Assembly: GCF_003989795.1 (NCBI RefSeq)
Contig: NZ_RZHG01000007.1
Location: forward strand, 62,001 to 126,000
Length of the DNA: 64,000 bases
Direction: 5' to 3'
Source: Vreelandella andesensis
GTDB taxonomy: Bacteria; Pseudomonadota; Gammaproteobacteria; Pseudomonadales; Halomonadaceae
Positions within the stretch are counted from its first letter, which is position 1. Each line of letters begins with the position of its first letter. The notes below the pieces were generated by a model. That model was not told the origin of the DNA. It saw only the letters and a list, made by a program, of their open reading frames with translations, and searched no databases. Shown here piece by piece: positions 8,844 through 18,150 of this stretch. A program made the translations under genes and the position numbers.

Positions 8844-9160
8844 TGGAGTGCCTCAGTTTTACGTAGTGCGAAATCTTTACGCGTCGGTGTGTTACCGAAC
8901 ATATCTCTTGATAGTAACGTGCTCTTTTTGATACGGCAAGCTTTAAGAAGATCGACGCAATTAGCTTCTTAATTATGAATTTTTGCATCTTTCTCTAGTG
9001 CCGTTGCATTTCAGCAAGTTAACGAAGTGTGGTTGATATAAAGCGTCTGAGTTTTGTGTCTAATGCAATTTTTAGATAAACACTCACTTTTATCAGGTGG
9101 ACATCATATAATTAGCGCATGCTTGATTTTAAATTTCTGCCAATAAACAAGGATGAACCT

Positions 9161-10600
9161 ATGGCCAAATTCTCTTCTCCAACGCTGGTTTTGGTTGCCG
9201 CAGGCGGGGTTGCTGCTGGGGTTTTAGCCGCGCAAGTAGCTCCCAGCTTTACCGCAATGGCCGCCGCCGAAGAATCTACCAGTATGGAACAGGTAGAAGC
9301 CCCCCAAGCATTAGTAGGGCTCGATAACATTACGCTAGGCGAGCGTATCCGAGGTGAGCTTACCTCGGCGGGTGAGCTAAACGGCAATGATGGAAGCCGC
9401 TACTTACGTTATGCCATTACTCTTGAAGAGGGGGCGTTAGTAGAAATTTCGCTAAGCGGAGCTTTGCAGGGTGTGGTCGCTCTCTATGACGATCACCTAC
9501 AACTGCTGGAAAGCGCAGAAACCGTTCACCACTATGTTGAGGAAGATGGAGATTACGTGGTGATTGTTAGTGGGGCAGACGCGCGTAGCTATGGCCCATT
9601 TACCCTTAACAGTCGCACTATTGAACTGAGCGATGCTGACACGCTTGACGTTGGCACGCCGATGGATAGTTGGCTAGAGGGTGCCTCCCGGGAGGTGGCG
9701 TTGACCATCGAGGAAGCAGGTATGTATCAAATTGAGATGCGTGCTGATGAGTTTGATGCGTATCTTGAGTTGTCTGGCCCTAACAACTATAACCGTGAAG
9801 ATGATGATGGTGCTGGAAACTTAAACGCACGTATTTCAGACTTCCTTGCTCCCGGTGACTATACCATTACTGCGCGTTCTGCCTTTGGAGAGGGCAATGG
9901 TGTGTTTACGTTGAGTGCCGAACCGCGCGAATTACCGAACGATGGCGAGTTACGCAACGACGGTAGTGTTATGCCTAGCGATACGCTTAGCGGTTGGTTT
10001 AGCGGTCAGGAATTAGGTTATCAGCTAGAAATTGAAGAAGCGGGTATGTATCAAATCGATATGCGCTCAAGCGATATCGATTCTTACCTGGTATTAGAAG
10101 GATCTAATGGCTATCTCCGCGAAAATGACGACAGTGGCGGCAATTATGACGCCAGTATTGCTGACTTCTTGGCGCCGGGTAGTTATCAGCTAACGGCGCG
10201 CACTGCGTATGGCTCCGGCAGCGGTCTGTTTACGCTTTCAGTGGAGCCACGTGAATTGCCAGATGATGTAGAGCTGCGTAATGAAGGCGAGTTAACGCCC
10301 AATGAAACGCTCAATGGCTGGTATGGCGGTGAGCCGCTAACCTATGAACTCACGCTAGAAGAAAGTTCTTTAGTAACGCTTAGTTTGCGTTCAGCGGACT
10401 TTGATACGTATTTAGAACTACGCGGCGAAAGCGATTCTCACAGCGATGATGACGGCGGTAATGGCACTGATTCTCGTTTAGAGCAGGCGCTCTTGCCGGG
10501 AACGTACACCGTTATTGCACGTGGTTTCTCTGTTAGTGGCAGCGGTATGTTTGAGCTACAAGTCAGTGCCGAACCGACAGAAATGCAGCCAGACGCGTAA
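9161..10600 (+). CDS. Exported protein with four PPC-like beta-sandwich repeats
   Basis: I place the start at the ATG at 9161 because AAGGA lies seven bases before it and the product then opens with a signal-anchor-like segment (MAKFSSPTLVLVAAGGV, cleavage likely after TAMAAA); an in-frame upstream ATG at 9119 is less likely. The mature part holds a degenerate first and three clear repeats of about 105 residues. Each has AGMYQIEMR-type strand, D-DAYLELSG, an acidic Asp-rich turn (EDDDGAGN, ENDDSGGN, SDDDGGNG) and FLAPGDYTITAR. This matches the pre-peptidase C-terminal (PPC) domain. There is no protease domain, so it is a stand-alone exported binding protein of unknown ligand. Confidence 0.7.
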   Translation: MAKFSSPTLVLVAAGGVAAGVLAAQVAPSFTAMAAAEESTSMEQVEAPQALVGLDNITLGERIRGELTSAGELNGNDGSRYLRYAITLEEGALVEISLSGALQGVVALYDDHLQLLESAETVHHYVEEDGDYVVIVSGADARSYGPFTLNSRTIELSDADTLDVGTPMDSWLEGASREVALTIEEAGMYQIEMRADEFDAYLELSGPNNYNREDDDGAGNLNARISDFLAPGDYTITARSAFGEGNGVFTLSAEPRELPNDGELRNDGSVMPSDTLSGWFSGQELGYQLEIEEAGMYQIDMRSSDIDSYLVLEGSNGYLRENDDSGGNYDASIADFLAPGSYQLTARTAYGSGSGLFTLSVEPRELPDDVELRNEGELTPNETLNGWYGGEPLTYELTLEESSLVTLSLRSADFDTYLELRGESDSHSDDDGGNGTDSRLEQALLPGTYTVIARGFSVSGSGMFELQVSAEPTEMQPDA

Positions 10601-11625: not shown

Positions 11626-13419
11626 TCACGCCGAATCACAGCCGTAATCACGGGTGGTTTGGCGGGGTTTAACGGCGTACATCTGGCTGTCCGCTTCGCG
11701 AAGTAGGCTGGCCAGCGTATCGTTATTTCCACGGCTGATACTAAAACCTACGCTGACACCTACGCTAACTAGTGTGTTGCAAGGCAGCTTGATAGGTGAG
11801 CCAACGGCCTGTTCGATACGGTTGCGCATCTCTTCTAATGCAGACTGATCAGATACTCCCTCTAGCAAGATAATAAACTCGTCGCCGCCAAAGCGCGCAC
11901 AGTGATCATTTTCTCGTGCGACGTGTACTAGGCGTTTGGCAACTTGCTGAAGCACGAAATCGCCTATTTCATGGCCATACTGGTCGTTAATTGGTTTAAA
12001 ACAGTCAAGATCGCACATGACTAGTGCCAAAGGCGAATGCGTTTTTTTACAACGTTCAAGGGCCGTTTCTGCGCAGCGTGCCAGCCCGTTGCGATTAAGT
12101 AGGTCGGTGAGCATATCGTGATTGGCAAGCTTTTCTAGTGCCTGGGTACGAGCGGCTACCTTAGCCTCTAGAACAGCTTCCTGCTTTTTTAGCATTGAAA
12201 CCGTTTCTGCTTGGGCGCGCTCTTTTTGCCATTTTAATCGATTAAAACGAGCGGCCAGTGCGAAAGACAGTAGCAACATTTCAATGGCTGAGCCGATCTG
12301 TACACCGTGAAGCGTAATGAAATTGGCAGGTAGAACGCTCAGGTTTCTTAGCGCAAATACGGCGGCACCGATTAGAAATATTGACCAAGCGAGCACAAAA
12401 ATACCCGCGCTAGGCACGCGGCGCCAACTGCAATAAATACCGCATACAAGCATTAATAGCGAGGCAGCAAATCCTGTGATATCCATTAATCGTAGGGCAG
12501 GTTGAATAGGCAAGAAGATCACCGCTATTAGCGCTAAATAGCAGTAACCGCGAAACAGCGTGATAACTTGGTGCCAGCGCGGGCAATAGGTGGCTGTATT
12601 GAGGAAACTTTGAGCGAATAGGCTTCCCATTGTAGAGGCAAACGTAAAGCCAATCGCCACTAAACGTGCGGTGTTATCGCCCAAAAAGCTCCAAAACATC
12701 AGCGTACCAATGCCATTGAAGGTCAAGATTGCCAGCGTAAACCCGAAGGCAAATAGGGCGTAGTAAAGAAATACGCGCTCTTTAAGTCCAAAAAAAAGCA
12801 ACAGGTTGTAAGTGCTTAATGCCAGCAGCATGCCGAAGTAGGTCGCCAGCCAGAAATTATGACGATCATTCTGAGTATAAAAAGCTTCTGGCGTCATTAA
12901 ACTGTAGCTCAGAAACTTACTGCCTGTGGCACTCACCTGGGTATAAAGCGTCACGGTCTCTCCACCCGCCAGCGTTAGAGGAAAAACCGCCTGGCGGTGA
13001 GCGATTGAGCGCTCATCAATTGGCACGGCGCTTCCGCTATGCTGAACTCCACTAGCGTTTTCACGCAGCGTATACAGCGTGACATAGTCTAAGAAAGGGT
13101 ATTCGAACTTAACCATCCATCTCGTAGGGGAGGCAGAGGCATTATGAATGTGTGTTTTAAGCCATGTGTCACTTTGCGTATAGCCGAAATGTAAATCAGA
13201 AGCGTGACGGACTGGTTGAAATGAGGGAGATAACGCTAAAACATCACGCAGGTTCAATGATTCTGAGGTGTGCCAATAACTACTAACCTCATTTAAATCA
13301 TAACGTGGCTGCTCAGAAGAGACGGCAATGGTAGTTGCTGCACTACTATGACTGCACCAGCAAATAATAAGCGCTAACAAGCCTGCCGAAAGGCGCTTTA
13401 ACCAACAGTTAACATCCAT
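11626..13419 (-). CDS. Membrane diguanylate cyclase with 7TMR-DISM sensor
   Basis: This 597-residue protein makes cyclic di-GMP from two GTP. Order of parts: signal peptide, periplasmic 7TMR-DISMED2-type sensor (about residues 30-170), seven transmembrane helices (about 180-395), a short coiled coil, and a C-terminal GGDEF domain. The catalytic motif is intact (RFGGDEFIILLEG) and an RxxD inhibitory site (REND) sits five residues before it, so product inhibition is expected. DISMED2 sensors probably bind carbohydrate-like ligands; the ligand here is unknown. The surface-fibre module lies close by (14.7-18.2 kb), but a regulatory link is only a suggestion. Confidence 0.9.
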   Translation of the reverse strand: MDVNCWLKRLSAGLLALIICWCSHSSAATTIAVSSEQPRYDLNEVSSYWHTSESLNLRDVLALSPSFQPVRHASDLHFGYTQSDTWLKTHIHNASASPTRWMVKFEYPFLDYVTLYTLRENASGVQHSGSAVPIDERSIAHRQAVFPLTLAGGETVTLYTQVSATGSKFLSYSLMTPEAFYTQNDRHNFWLATYFGMLLALSTYNLLLFFGLKERVFLYYALFAFGFTLAILTFNGIGTLMFWSFLGDNTARLVAIGFTFASTMGSLFAQSFLNTATYCPRWHQVITLFRGYCYLALIAVIFLPIQPALRLMDITGFAASLLMLVCGIYCSWRRVPSAGIFVLAWSIFLIGAAVFALRNLSVLPANFITLHGVQIGSAIEMLLLSFALAARFNRLKWQKERAQAETVSMLKKQEAVLEAKVAARTQALEKLANHDMLTDLLNRNGLARCAETALERCKKTHSPLALVMCDLDCFKPINDQYGHEIGDFVLQQVAKRLVHVARENDHCARFGGDEFIILLEGVSDQSALEEMRNRIEQAVGSPIKLPCNTLVSVGVSVGFSISRGNNDTLASLLREADSQMYAVKPRQTTRDYGCDSA

Positions 13420-14706: not shown

Positions 14707-15726
14707 TTAAATTTTGTCAGAGGAAAACTTCCATGCATGCCGCTTCTGGTAAAGTGTTGAAGGGGCAATCTCTAGCAATGAAGCCGCACGCTGAATATTG
14801 CCGTTACATATTCTAATAGCATTTTCAATCGCCTTTTTCTCTACCTGCCACAGCGGCAAAACTGAGTGGGGCCAAACTTCACCTTCATTTTGATTGTTTT
14901 TACTCAAATAATTTTCAAACGCATTATCTAAATTTAGCATCTCCAAGGTAAGCACTAGGCCGCTATACATTATCACCGCCCTTCTAATAACATTTTCAAG
15001 CTCTCTGATATTTCCAGGCCACGAGTGTTCAAGTAATATTTTTTCAGCATCAGCGGAAAAGCGCTGAAACTTTTTTTTCTCTTCCAAAGAATAGCGCTTC
15101 AAAAGTTTATAAGCAATTTCAATAACATCTCGCCCTCTCTCCCTCAATGGATAAAGCTTTATAGGAAATACATTCAAGCGATAATAAAGATCTGATCTGA
15201 ACAAACCCGCATTAACTTGTTCTAACGGATTTACGTTGGTTGCACACACGATACGACAATTCACCGCATAAGTAGTTGTCGAACCTATCGGCATTACCTG
15301 ACCTGTCTGAAGGAATCTTAGTAGTTTACTTTGCATGGTCAGGCTTAACTCTGCAATTTCGTCTAAGAAGAGAGTTCCCCCATCCGCCGCTCTTGCATAA
15401 CCGATACTATCGCAGATTGCTCCCGTAAAAGTACCTTTTAGGTGGCCAAAAAATTGAGACTCAAAAATATCAAATGGAATTGCCGCACAATTCACAGCAA
15501 TAAATGGCTTATCACACCTGGCGCTCTTCTCATGGAGCATGGTCGCGCACAGTTCTTTTCCAGTCCCACTCTCGCCGGTTAGAAAAACCGGCACATCGGA
15601 TTTAGCTAAATGATCAAGTAACTCGTAAAGCGCACCCATCTTTGCTGAACTACCTATGAAAGCCTGTTTTGTCGTATTCCCTTCGAGAGTATTGATATTT
15701 TTATTATGAAAAATATATTGATTCAT
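14707..15726 (-). CDS. Sigma-54-dependent activator without an N-terminal sensor domain (PspF-like layout)
   Basis: A 339-residue bacterial enhancer-binding protein. After only about 25 residues the AAA+ domain begins: Walker A GESGTGKE, the sigma-54 contact loop as GTFTGA instead of GAFTGA, Walker B GGTLFLDEI, and the arginine region FRSDLYYRLNVFPI. The C-terminus has a Fis-type helix-turn-helix (ICNGNIQRAASLLEIAPSTL). No receiver, PAS or GAF domain is present, so control must come from a partner protein, abundance or its own expression. The gene is visibly AT-rich. It is divergent from the operon at 16199, whose -24/-12 promoter it very probably drives. Confidence 0.9.
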   Translation of the reverse strand: MNQYIFHNKNINTLEGNTTKQAFIGSSAKMGALYELLDHLAKSDVPVFLTGESGTGKELCATMLHEKSARCDKPFIAVNCAAIPFDIFESQFFGHLKGTFTGAICDSIGYARAADGGTLFLDEIAELSLTMQSKLLRFLQTGQVMPIGSTTTYAVNCRIVCATNVNPLEQVNAGLFRSDLYYRLNVFPIKLYPLRERGRDVIEIAYKLLKRYSLEEKKKFQRFSADAEKILLEHSWPGNIRELENVIRRAVIMYSGLVLTLEMLNLDNAFENYLSKNNQNEGEVWPHSVLPLWQVEKKAIENAIRICNGNIQRAASLLEIAPSTLYQKRHAWKFSSDKI

Positions 15727-16147
15727 TTTTGAACCTTTAGCGCCTTGGTCGCGGTAATTAAATTTTTACAAAATTAAAGCGTAGCACACATGGTTAAAAC
15801 TAAAGTATTTAATTATCACATTTAAATAAAGCTATTTTCATAGCTACTGATAATAATATTCATAAGCAATTTTTGATTTTTTTATGCTGCAAAAAAATTA
15901 TTTTTGGTCGTTAGAGAAGTAGGTTCTTTAATTTTTTTAATTAATTTTTTAATTGTTTTATTAATTCTATTGAGTATGAAAAAAATCATACTTGTGCTAA
16001 CTTTTAATCAAGCCTGTTGGATGCTCGCCTTTAAAGTAGTGCATTTTAAAAATTATATATTAAAACGAATTGCAAAATGCGAATGAAAAAAAATACGCTA
16101 TAGCAATATTCAGAAAATATATTGAAAATAAAAGTTAAATTATATTT
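15727..16147. other. AT-rich intergenic control region
   Basis: These 421 bases between the activator gene and the sigma-54 promoter are very AT-rich, with long A and T runs around 15890-15970. No plausible gene is present. The stretch contains two inverted repeats (15973-15992; 16041-16047 with 16074-16080) and AATCAA at 16006-16011, which approaches the IHF consensus with the spacer one base too long. This is the usual architecture for DNA looping between an activator and sigma-54 polymerase. Confidence 0.55.
15973..15992. promoter_or_regulatory. Candidate upstream activator site (inverted repeat)
   Basis: AGTATGA and TCATACT form a perfect seven-base dyad with a six-base A spacer. It lies about 157 bases upstream of the -24 element at 16149, within the range typical for enhancer sites of sigma-54 activators. 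Assignment to the activator at 14707 is inference from position and symmetry. Confidence 0.45.
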
Positions 16148-16162
16148 TGGCACGCGTTCTGC
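16148..16162 (+). promoter_or_regulatory. Sigma-54 (-24/-12) promoter of the CsgG/HfaB-like operon
   Basis: TGGCAC, five bases, then CTGC: the invariant GG (16149-16150) and GC (16161-16162) are exactly ten bases apart as required for RpoN polymerase, and five of six upstream consensus bases match. Transcription would start near 16174, 25 bases before the ATG at 16199. A sigma-54 activator gene is divergent immediately upstream, which strongly supports the call. Confidence 0.82.
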
Positions 16163-16198
16163 CTTGACCCTGCTAGGGAACAAGCCAGGGCGTTTATA

Positions 16199-17041
16199 AT
16201 GAAAATATATAAATACAGTTTTGCATGCTGCTTGGTAAATATTATCAGTGGTTGTGCATCTATTGAACCAAACGTGAACACCGTACAACCGCTCATAGGT
16301 CCACCTGTTACTTCTAATCATACCCCGTATTCACAATGCTTAGCTGATCTGCGAGACAGTTATGAGGCTAACAACCTTCCCGTTATCGCGGTTGGACAGA
16401 TCAGCGATAAAACGGGGCAAAAGACCTACAGCACCGTTACTGAAAGCAGCGCCTTGACTCAAGGCGTTTCTGAAATGTTGATCAGCGCTTTCTATAAAAC
16501 GGGCAAGGTGAACCTGACTGAACGCTTGGACGTCAGAATTCCTCTGGCCGAGCAACAGTTATTCGAGCAGAACGCCTTGGCGTACGCCCCCAAGCCCATT
16601 GCGGTAATGCCGGCGAATTTCGTGATTTTAGGCGCTTTGACTGAGCTTAATTACAACATTTCCACCGGAGGCGCTCGTCTCTTCGTGAGCGGTATAGGCG
16701 GCGGTATACGCACCGCCGTTATCAATGTTGGCCTGGATCTTCGCCTGGTCGATGTCAGGACATTTAGAACCTTGTATGTATCAAGCCTGCAGAAGCAGGT
16801 TGTTGGTTACGAGGTTGAATCGGGCGTTTATCGCTTTTTTGGAAATCAGCTTATCGAGTTCGATACCGGCGCTGTGAGAAATGAACCTTTACAGCTCGGT
16901 GTTCGATCGGTCGTGGAGATGAGTGCTTTTCAGATCCTGACCGAAGGCCTAGGTCTTCCACTCCCCGAGGGGAAATCGTGCGAGCCGGAAGCCGGGTATC
17001 CTGTAGTCGCTAACCATGAGGTAAACCACAATGAAACTTAA
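16199..17041 (+). CDS. CsgG/HfaB-family outer-membrane secretion lipoprotein
   Basis: A 280-residue lipoprotein: the signal peptide ends in IISGCAS, giving Cys19 as the lipidated residue. The mature protein follows CsgG: VIAVGQISDKTGQKTYSTVT near residue 62, ALTQGVSEMLISAFYKTG, NLTERLD, FVILGALTELNYN, then GGARLFVSGIGGG and LDLRLVDVRTFRTLYVSS, VVGYEVESGVYRFF and NEPLQLGVRSVVEMSAF. CsgG forms a nonameric outer-membrane pore exporting curli subunits; HfaB does the same for holdfast anchor proteins. CsgE and CsgF homologues are not seen. Transcribed from the sigma-54 promoter; its 3' end overlaps the next gene by 11 bases. Confidence 0.85.
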   Translation: MKIYKYSFACCLVNIISGCASIEPNVNTVQPLIGPPVTSNHTPYSQCLADLRDSYEANNLPVIAVGQISDKTGQKTYSTVTESSALTQGVSEMLISAFYKTGKVNLTERLDVRIPLAEQQLFEQNALAYAPKPIAVMPANFVILGALTELNYNISTGGARLFVSGIGGGIRTAVINVGLDLRLVDVRTFRTLYVSSLQKQVVGYEVESGVYRFFGNQLIEFDTGAVRNEPLQLGVRSVVEMSAFQILTEGLGLPLPEGKSCEPEAGYPVVANHEVNHNET

Positions 17042-17690
17042 TACACTCACCGTAGCTATCGGCGCTGCAAGCGTCATGATGTTGGGCCTGTCTCAGGCAC
17101 AGGCCTTTGATAGAAGTCACTGGAATTGGGACTTGGACGTCCAAACTATTATCACTGAGCATATCACTATCAATGATCATTTTAATAATCCTGGCGGTAT
17201 AACACTGGTCGAGATTGATCAGGACTTCAACGGGAGCCTAACAGCAGTCAGCACTGTGACTGATATCGACAACTCGGATTGGGGGTTAGGTGAGCTGGGC
17301 GCTATCGAAAGCGCAGCGACGGCCGTCGCCAATAACGCAAGCCTGTCCTCGGAAGTCATGCCCAATATTGATGCCAATCAGTTCTGGCAAGGCTCCGGCA
17401 CCATAGATGCTTCATCATACGTGGCAAACATCAACAACATGACGGTTGACAGCGTCGCCACGGCTGTGGCCAATAACTTGTCAGTCGATTTTGATGCGGC
17501 CGGGCATTTTGACTCTGTCTTGCTGGCCAACGTCGTGCAAACTGGCGTAGGTGATATCTCGGCCTACTCAACCGTAGACAATGTAACTCTCAGCGTGGCA
17601 GCACCTGAAAGTTTCACAGGCCCTCACATCAGCTCTGTTGCCACAGCGGTTGGCAACAACGTGAGCGTTAATGTGGGCGGCAATTTATAA
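17031..17690 (+). CDS. Exported SxATAVxNN-repeat protein, candidate CsgG-secreted surface subunit
   Basis: A 219-residue protein with a signal peptide (cleavage near AQA-FDR, residue 25). Three copies of a motif S-x-A-T-A-V-x-N-N-x-S-[LV] occur at about residues 94-105, 141-152 and 202-213, between stretches rich in Asn, Ser, Thr, Val and Asp; there is no Cys. This is the low-complexity, repeat-bearing, beta-prone composition of secreted fibre or anchor subunits (curlin, HfaD-like). Its start codon lies inside the end of the CsgG-like gene with GAGGT eight bases upstream, so translation is coupled. It is the most likely export substrate. The fibre role is inference. Confidence 0.72.
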   Translation: MKLNTLTVAIGAASVMMLGLSQAQAFDRSHWNWDLDVQTIITEHITINDHFNNPGGITLVEIDQDFNGSLTAVSTVTDIDNSDWGLGELGAIESAATAVANNASLSSEVMPNIDANQFWQGSGTIDASSYVANINNMTVDSVATAVANNLSVDFDAAGHFDSVLLANVVQTGVGDISAYSTVDNVTLSVAAPESFTGPHISSVATAVGNNVSVNVGGNL

Positions 17691-17707
17691 TTTTCACCAC
17701 TAGGGAG

Positions 17708-17733
17708 CCGGAGGGCTGGCGTCAGCCCTCCGG
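17708..17733 (+). promoter_or_regulatory. Intercistronic stem-loop between the two exported-protein genes
   Basis: A perfect 11-base-pair GC-rich stem (CCGGAGGGCTG with its complement, loop GCGT) starts 17 bases after the stop at 17690 and is followed by GGAGCGGAGGAG, the ribosome site of the next gene, with no T run. Such a hairpin may protect the upstream message from exonucleases or partially terminate transcription, giving more repeat protein than downstream protein. It is not a standard terminator. Confidence 0.55.
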
Positions 17734-17748
17734 AGCGGAGGAGACCCC

Positions 17749-18150
17749 ATGAAGCTTTATCTATTTCGAATCGGCTTGATGGTTTACGGCGTCCTGTTCG
17801 CCATGATGACACTTCCCTCGCTTGCCATGGCCAGCGAGGGCTCACTGATCGGGCCGAAGCCTTATAATTTTCCGGCGCGTAGTGCTCAATCTGCGCTGAT
17901 CCTCTATGAGAGCAAGCAAAGCGGCAGCCTAGGTCAGGCCGCAGGGTCGACTAGGATATACAGCAATACAAGTATCTCTGCGAATAATTGGCAGCAAATT
18001 GAAATGACATTGGGTGACAATGCGGAAGCCGCACTAGATGTCAATTCTAGCCAGAGTGCTGAAGGTAGCCAATCCACCACTAGTTCGGAATTTCTCAATA
18101 ATGATAGTGACGTGAGGCAAGGCGAAGAAGAAATGCAGCGTCAGGAATAA
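17749..18150 (+). CDS. Small exported Ser/Asn/Gln-rich protein of the fibre module
   Basis: A 133-residue protein with a signal peptide (cleavage near AMA-SEGS, residue 28). The mature part holds GSLIGPKPYNFPARSAQSAL, then RIYSNTSISANNWQQIEMTL and a polar, unstructured tail (SQSAEGSQSTTSSEF...RQGEEEMQRQE). I do not recognise a family. Size, export signal and position compare with HfaA, the small exported partner in holdfast anchor operons, but I see no aligned motif to prove it. It is the third gene of the sigma-54 operon, translated from a strong GGAGGAG site. Confidence 0.68.
   Translation: MKLYLFRIGLMVYGVLFAMMTLPSLAMASEGSLIGPKPYNFPARSAQSALILYESKQSGSLGQAAGSTRIYSNTSISANNWQQIEMTLGDNAEAALDVNSSQSAEGSQSTTSSEFLNNDSDVRQGEEEMQRQE

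Follow-up and report, generated by a model that had tools for sequence, protein, structure and literature searches.

A CsgG/HfaB-type lipoprotein operon beside a sensorless sigma-54 activator in Vreelandella andesensis

Gene content and gene products

The locus described here lies in a stretch of 64,000 nucleotides (the window, numbered from its first letter) on contig NZ_RZHG01000007.1 of Vreelandella andesensis (assembly GCF_003989795.1; genome of 3.9 Mb in 34 contigs). Window positions 14707-18150 hold a divergent pair, in which a minus-strand activator gene is separated by an AT-rich gap from plus-strand genes for a lipoprotein (LIP), a repeat protein (REP), and a small protein (SM). An initial annotation, made from the sequence alone, had placed an activator, an AT-rich gap, a promoter, a lipoprotein, and two small proteins here, each of which was located at its proposed position, and its reading of the locus as a CsgG/HfaB secretion module of sigma-54 type, equipped with a dedicated activator, was supported.

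LIP (16199..17041, plus strand, 280 amino acids) was assigned to the CsgG family by its match to Pfam PF03783 (97.6 bits, against a cut-off of 20.8), and a lipobox, ISGC, was read from its sequence. The NCBIfam HfaB model gave 145.1 bits (under the equivalog cut-off of 300) and the NCBIfam CsgG model 60.3 bits (also under its cut-off), so that the HfaB model is the nearer of the two; CsgG in the PDB was matched at E 1.3e-16. The PF03783 and HfaB matches bear out the earlier proposal that the 280-aa protein is a CsgG/HfaB lipoprotein. One further CsgG gene was found in the genome, on another contig (locus L001), with a Pfam score of 262.6 bits versus 98.2 for LIP. Its neighbors look like curli genes, as judged from their sequences and not from a family search.

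The REP gene (17031..17690, plus strand, 219 amino acids) starts 11 nt before the end of LIP and is followed by the SM gene (17749..18150, plus strand, 133 amino acids). Both proteins begin with a signal-peptide-like segment, identified by eye and not with a signal-peptide program. The three SxATAVxNN repeats of REP were located on the plus strand at residues 94-102 (17310..17336), 141-149 (17451..17477), and 202-210 (17634..17660), which agrees with the description of two signal-peptide-like small proteins, one of them with three such repeats. In an alignment of 64 sequences (the window REP plus 63 selected among 120 listed homologues, out of 413 in all), the repeats hold many of the most conserved columns. 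Some REP homologues carry the label PF27294, which is absent from the Pfam version used. LIP, REP, and SM are the sole plus-strand open reading frames (ORFs) of at least 80 amino acids within 16199-18150, and REP and SM matched neither CsgE nor CsgF in Pfam or NCBIfam, so the operon lacks both, as had been claimed.

The structure model of REP (predicted local distance difference test, pLDDT, 73.9; predicted template modeling score, pTM, 0.70) is all-beta from residue 57, with a low-confidence model for the first 45 residues, and the SM model was of low confidence and uninformative. Compared with the PDB, the REP model had a sole match at E ≤ 0.001, the FapC amyloid fibril 9u4u_A, and this match was weak (E 2.2e-05); the REP profile gave no sequence match to PDB chains at E up to 1. 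The all-beta model and the weak fibril match are compatible with an amyloid-like product.

Profiles of REP and SM were compared with those of HfaD, HfaB, and HfaA genes from Caulobacterales genomes, the profile search that the initial annotation had proposed for its 219- and 133-aa proteins. Remote likeness was obtained between REP and HfaD (88.3% over 122 columns) and between SM and HfaA (82.7% over 40 columns), with lower values for the remaining pairs (REP-HfaA 64.5%, SM-REP 9.4%, SM-HfaD 1.7%). Eight reversed profiles reached at most 0.2%, and none of 25 column shuffles reached any of the four tested scores. Searched against NCBIfam, REP had no match at E up to 1 and SM had no match to the HfaA model at E up to 1, so neither was assigned to the HfaD or HfaA family. 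As far as sequence comparison goes, the REP-HfaD and SM-HfaA relationships are distant similarities around a shared motif and not family membership.

Recurrence and descent of the module

Related loci were collected by a pattern-based search with LIP alone, which reaches close relatives only. The search returned 73 loci, comprising 12 halomonad loci, 55 others (nearly all alphaproteobacterial by record title), and six remote HfaB-type loci (L070-L075) with 31-36% identity to LIP. Co-occurrence was counted in the 67 loci L003-L069, of which L003 is Halomonas ventosae CP022737.1; L001 and L070-L075 stood outside the count. With single window sequences as queries, REP was detected in 56 loci and SM in 31; iterated profiles placed REP downstream of LIP in 62 and recovered SM in 63. 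Four loci without REP and SM end at a contig edge (L039, L052, L055, L063), and in L062, the fifth without a REP match, a repeat protein is visible in the translation. The initial annotation was to be abandoned if the three genes never co-occurred elsewhere, and these counts show that they do. From the conserved gene row, LIP-REP-SM is a real recurring module of Alphaproteobacteria and Halomonadaceae, and its recurrence beside LIP, together with that of the promoter element described below in 10 relatives, makes the observation more than chance.

In several alphaproteobacterial loci another SM-like gene lies upstream and points the other way (L031 3155-3694, L033 3777-4415, and L038 4245-4658, all minus strand); that of L031 sits between two LuxR-type regulator genes. 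In L008 (1305-4422) the module is preceded by a hybrid kinase gene and by one for a small protein that borders on the Oxidored_molyb family, and similar-looking ORFs are found in L012 and L014.

A strong hairpin lies 3' of the REP stop codon in the intercistronic region (17708..17733, plus strand; 11-bp stem, 4-nt loop). Over 62 loci, the window included and L020 excluded, the median folding z after REP was −3.43, with values below −3 in 38 and below −2 in 51. For comparison, the medians at two control sites within REP were −0.35 and −0.36, and that after SM was −0.90; at these three sites z fell below −2 in 2, 3, and 21 of the 62 loci, respectively. The window's own hairpin reaches a z of only −2.31. 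Since it has no T-tract, the hairpin is read as a putative processing or stability element and not as a terminator.

Within Halomonadaceae, 80 of 201 genomes had some CsgG-type match, while 14 (the window genome included) had this LIP at ≥ 62% identity, in one of them with an internal stop codon; the module is therefore patchy in halomonads and separate from the commoner CsgG. In Vreelandella rituensis (L004 5001-5843), LIP is split into two ORFs in that record, and a single in-frame stop interrupts the LIP of genome G164. The halomonad genome G162 has, in addition to a closer copy, a further LIP-like stretch at C4:109265-110083 that is more diverged (42-46% identity).

A tree was built from 82 LIP-type sequences, with L004 left out on account of its two ORFs and with two curli CsgG sequences, four of five further loci tried having yielded no ORF. 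The 12 halomonad LIPs fell in a 19-row clade (support 100/100) together with seven Rhizobiales- or Paracoccaceae-type rows, and the surrounding rows were alphaproteobacterial. This nesting suggests horizontal transfer of the module from Alphaproteobacteria to halomonads, the direction being inferred because the root was set for drawing only. Inside the clade the halomonads form three groups mixed with alphaproteobacterial rows, so that transfer may have occurred more than once.

Predicted sigma-54 control in the halomonad loci

The intergenic region between the activator and LIP (15727..16198) has 27% G+C compared with 51% for the window. On its plus strand at 16148..16163 is the -24/-12 sigma-54 promoter element TGGCACGCGTTCTGCC (TGGCACG-N4-CTGCC), which agrees with 10 of 12 consensus positions and has exactly the GG-N10-GC spacing previously noted; its score was reached in 0 of 300 mononucleotide shuffles. 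The genome has one Sigma54_DBD (rpoN) match. The window shares this element with each of the 10 halomonad relatives whose activator adjoins LIP, at a distance of 47-119 nt upstream of the LIP match start. A second halomonad scan found the element in 11 of 12 regions by including another, weaker site in L015, and the count of 10 is relied on here. From the position of the element, transcription of the LIP operon would start near 16174. Sigma-70 promoters and terminators, searched for by consensus, came out no more often than by chance.

The activator gene (14707..15726, minus strand, 339 amino acids) was identified as a sigma-54 enhancer-binding protein by Pfam matches to Sigma54_activat (210.2 bits), a Fis-type helix-turn-helix (43.3 bits), and an AAA lid. 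Its best NCBIfam model is LuxO at 390.7 bits, under the cut-off of 800, and it is thus not assigned to LuxO. It had been described as sensorless with intact AAA+ motifs, and Pfam indeed gave neither a Response_reg nor a sensor domain match. One detail needs correction: in the alignment the GAFTGA loop, which contacts sigma-54, reads GTFTGA in the window activator and in L003, whereas the other 9 of 11 aligned activators have GAFTGA or GAFSGA.

An activator homologue adjoins LIP in 10 of the 12 halomonad loci and in none of the 55 others. As for the two halomonad exceptions, L018 is cut by a contig end soon after SM, and L015 has a receiver-bearing activator about 9 kb downstream, in a genome where hybrid kinase, GGDEF-EAL, and receiver-bearing activator genes stand in a row. 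Receiver domains are present in the activators of L010, L011, L013, and L064, with an aspartate aligned at the expected phosphate-acceptor position, and a hybrid kinase with an Hpt domain adjoins each of them. No Pfam receiver match was obtained for the activators of the window, L003, L004, L005, L058, L006, and L007. As four related halomonad activators retain the receiver, the sensorless form appears to be derived, loss being a likelier direction than gain; the kinase would have disappeared from the window lineage as well. The switch would then depend on the activator level or on another partner, not on phosphorylation. Two genes from the activator, at window 11626-13419, lies a 7TMR-DISM diguanylate cyclase; response-regulator genes of RR-EAL and RR-GGDEF-EAL type were seen near the module in L011 and L134.

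The upstream regions were also scanned for the LuxO consensus, TTGCA-N3-TGCAA as quoted by PMC3352281 and PMC11443567. Of 13 halomonad regions, 6 had sites agreeing at ≥ 9 of 10 positions, which totaled 10 (0.55 expected), and 11 had sites agreeing at 8 of 10, which totaled 23 (5.3 expected). The window has one putative activator site of this kind, TTGCAAAATGCGA at 16070..16082, with 9 of 10 consensus positions. The LuxO-like activator would bind such sites, the majority of which lie 65-140 bp upstream of the -24 element.

Both signals were at chance in the 49 upstream regions scanned from non-halomonads (the 55 loci minus 6), with the promoter element present in 8 against 8.55 expected and LuxO-like sites at ≥ 9 of 10 positions once against 0.78 expected. 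Sigma-54 control of the module in general was rejected on this basis; RpoN control, initially presented as a trait of the module, looks instead like halomonad-specific rewiring. In the fetched loci, which extend up to 5 kb to either side, 45 of the 55 from non-halomonads have a LuxR-type homologue, at least 40 of them upstream of LIP, as against 0 of 12 from halomonads. We infer from the conserved DNA sites that halomonads exchanged LuxR-type control for a LuxO-like sigma-54 activator. A LuxR-type homologue also occurs in L001, near the genome's other CsgG gene.

The arrangement has published counterparts. PMC9207406 reports that in Pseudomonas fluorescens PF07 fap has an RpoN -24/-12 promoter and that its transcription needs brfA, a neighboring, reverse-oriented gene for a Fis-family activator; the locus studied here likewise pairs a -24/-12 promoter with an adjacent, oppositely oriented Fis-family activator. 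The fap precedent means that the idea of RpoN plus an adjacent activator on an amyloid operon is already known. The module is like fap also in that the FapC fibril is the best, if weak, structural match of the REP model, and differs from it in that the REP profile has no PDB sequence match and LIP is a CsgG-type lipoprotein, not FapF. FapF is the Fap outer-membrane protein. The resemblance to Vibrio LuxO consists of the best NCBIfam model and the TTGCA-N3-TGCAA-like sites upstream of a -24/-12 element, whereas this activator scores under the LuxO cut-off, has no receiver domain, and adjoins an export operon, LuxO being encoded beside qrr RNAs. No description of the module, or of RpoN plus an adjacent activator combined with a CsgG/HfaB-type module, was found among the listed titles and abstract openings of open-licence PubMed Central literature, which is weak evidence of absence. 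The initial annotation's view of the combination as undescribed needs qualifying: the module has known distant relatives, in that REP and SM resemble HfaD and HfaA, and the regulatory pairing is published for fap.

Proposed function and alternatives

LIP, REP, and SM probably form an outer-membrane secretion module that makes an amyloid-like surface fiber and that is switched by sigma-54 in halomonads. LIP is the predicted pore and would export REP and SM, with REP the likely main subunit of the amyloid-like surface fiber and SM probably a minor one that nucleates or anchors it. By means of the hairpin, REP mRNA would be held at a higher level than SM mRNA, in keeping with these major and minor roles. 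A wider account, advanced tentatively and at somewhat less than an even chance, is that this is a third class of CsgG-dependent surface fiber, spread through Alphaproteobacteria, besides curli and the holdfast anchor; that halomonads captured it and swapped a LuxR-type for a LuxO-like sigma-54 switch; and that one lineage cut away the receiver and kinase, leaving a sensorless switch for an amyloid-like fiber.

The closest known system is HfaABD of Caulobacter, which according to PMC6707917 consists of a CsgG-like lipoprotein, a long repeat protein (HfaD), and a small amyloid-like protein (HfaA), anchors polysaccharide, and relies on HfaB for HfaA and HfaD targeting. Both systems have a CsgG-like lipoprotein with two secreted partners (secretion being predicted here), one repeat-rich and one small, and share the motif S/A-T-A-x-G/A-N-N. 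By its sequences the module resembles a rearranged relative of the holdfast anchor, and by analogy the function of HfaABD may carry over to LIP, REP, and SM. LIP might accordingly place REP and SM on the surface to tether exopolysaccharide, with no free fiber formed, a reading favored by the REP-HfaD and SM-HfaA profile similarities and by sugar-transferase and Wzy_C genes near the activator in L003. We consider it rather unlikely, given that all three proteins fall under the HfaABD equivalog cut-offs, that the gene order is B-D-A versus A-B-D, and that polysaccharide genes were seen beside L003 only, though neighborhoods were not surveyed for them and hfs genes were not searched. The regulators differ as well, and the holdfast polysaccharide is a feature of HfaABD. 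Genomes of Caulobacter and Asticcacaulis (L070 2887-5975; also L071-L074), which have an HfaD gene on a separate contig, also carry a repeat-protein gene, an HfaA-like gene, and a tandem pair of HfaB-type genes in one row.

It is improbable that LIP is a CsgG-type lipoprotein with some other envelope role and that REP and SM are soluble or periplasmic, forming neither fiber nor anchor. The low-confidence models of SM and of the REP N-terminus would allow this, as would the fact that secretion of REP and SM is a prediction only, but the conserved gene order and repeats, the remote similarity to the surface proteins HfaA and HfaD, and the beta-repeat model argue against it.

A diverged curli operon, to which the Pfam and PDB matches of LIP to CsgG might point, is highly improbable, and ordinary curli was rejected, because the second CsgG gene of the genome scores far better in Pfam and has curli-like neighbors on its own contig, REP and SM had no match to the Pfam curlin repeat at E up to 1, and a long 100/100 branch separates LIP from the two curli CsgG sequences of the tree. 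The module shares with curli the CsgG-type lipoprotein family and differs in the lack of detected curlin repeats, in the absence of CsgE and CsgF from the operon, and in its sigma-54-type promoter.

If the proposed fiber module and its history are correct, a module for exporting probable amyloid-like surface proteins extends across several alphaproteobacterial orders, and the halomonads offer a clear natural case of rewiring: one operon stands beside LuxR-type regulators in its likely donors but is governed by sigma-54 enhancer control in the recipients, where some activators are intermediate and retain the receiver domain. It would also become possible to test outside Caulobacter how holdfast anchors, curli, and other CsgG systems are linked.

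Elsewhere in the window, positions 9119-10600 encode a protein of 493 amino acids that looks secreted, contains internal repeats, and has a match to a PPC domain.

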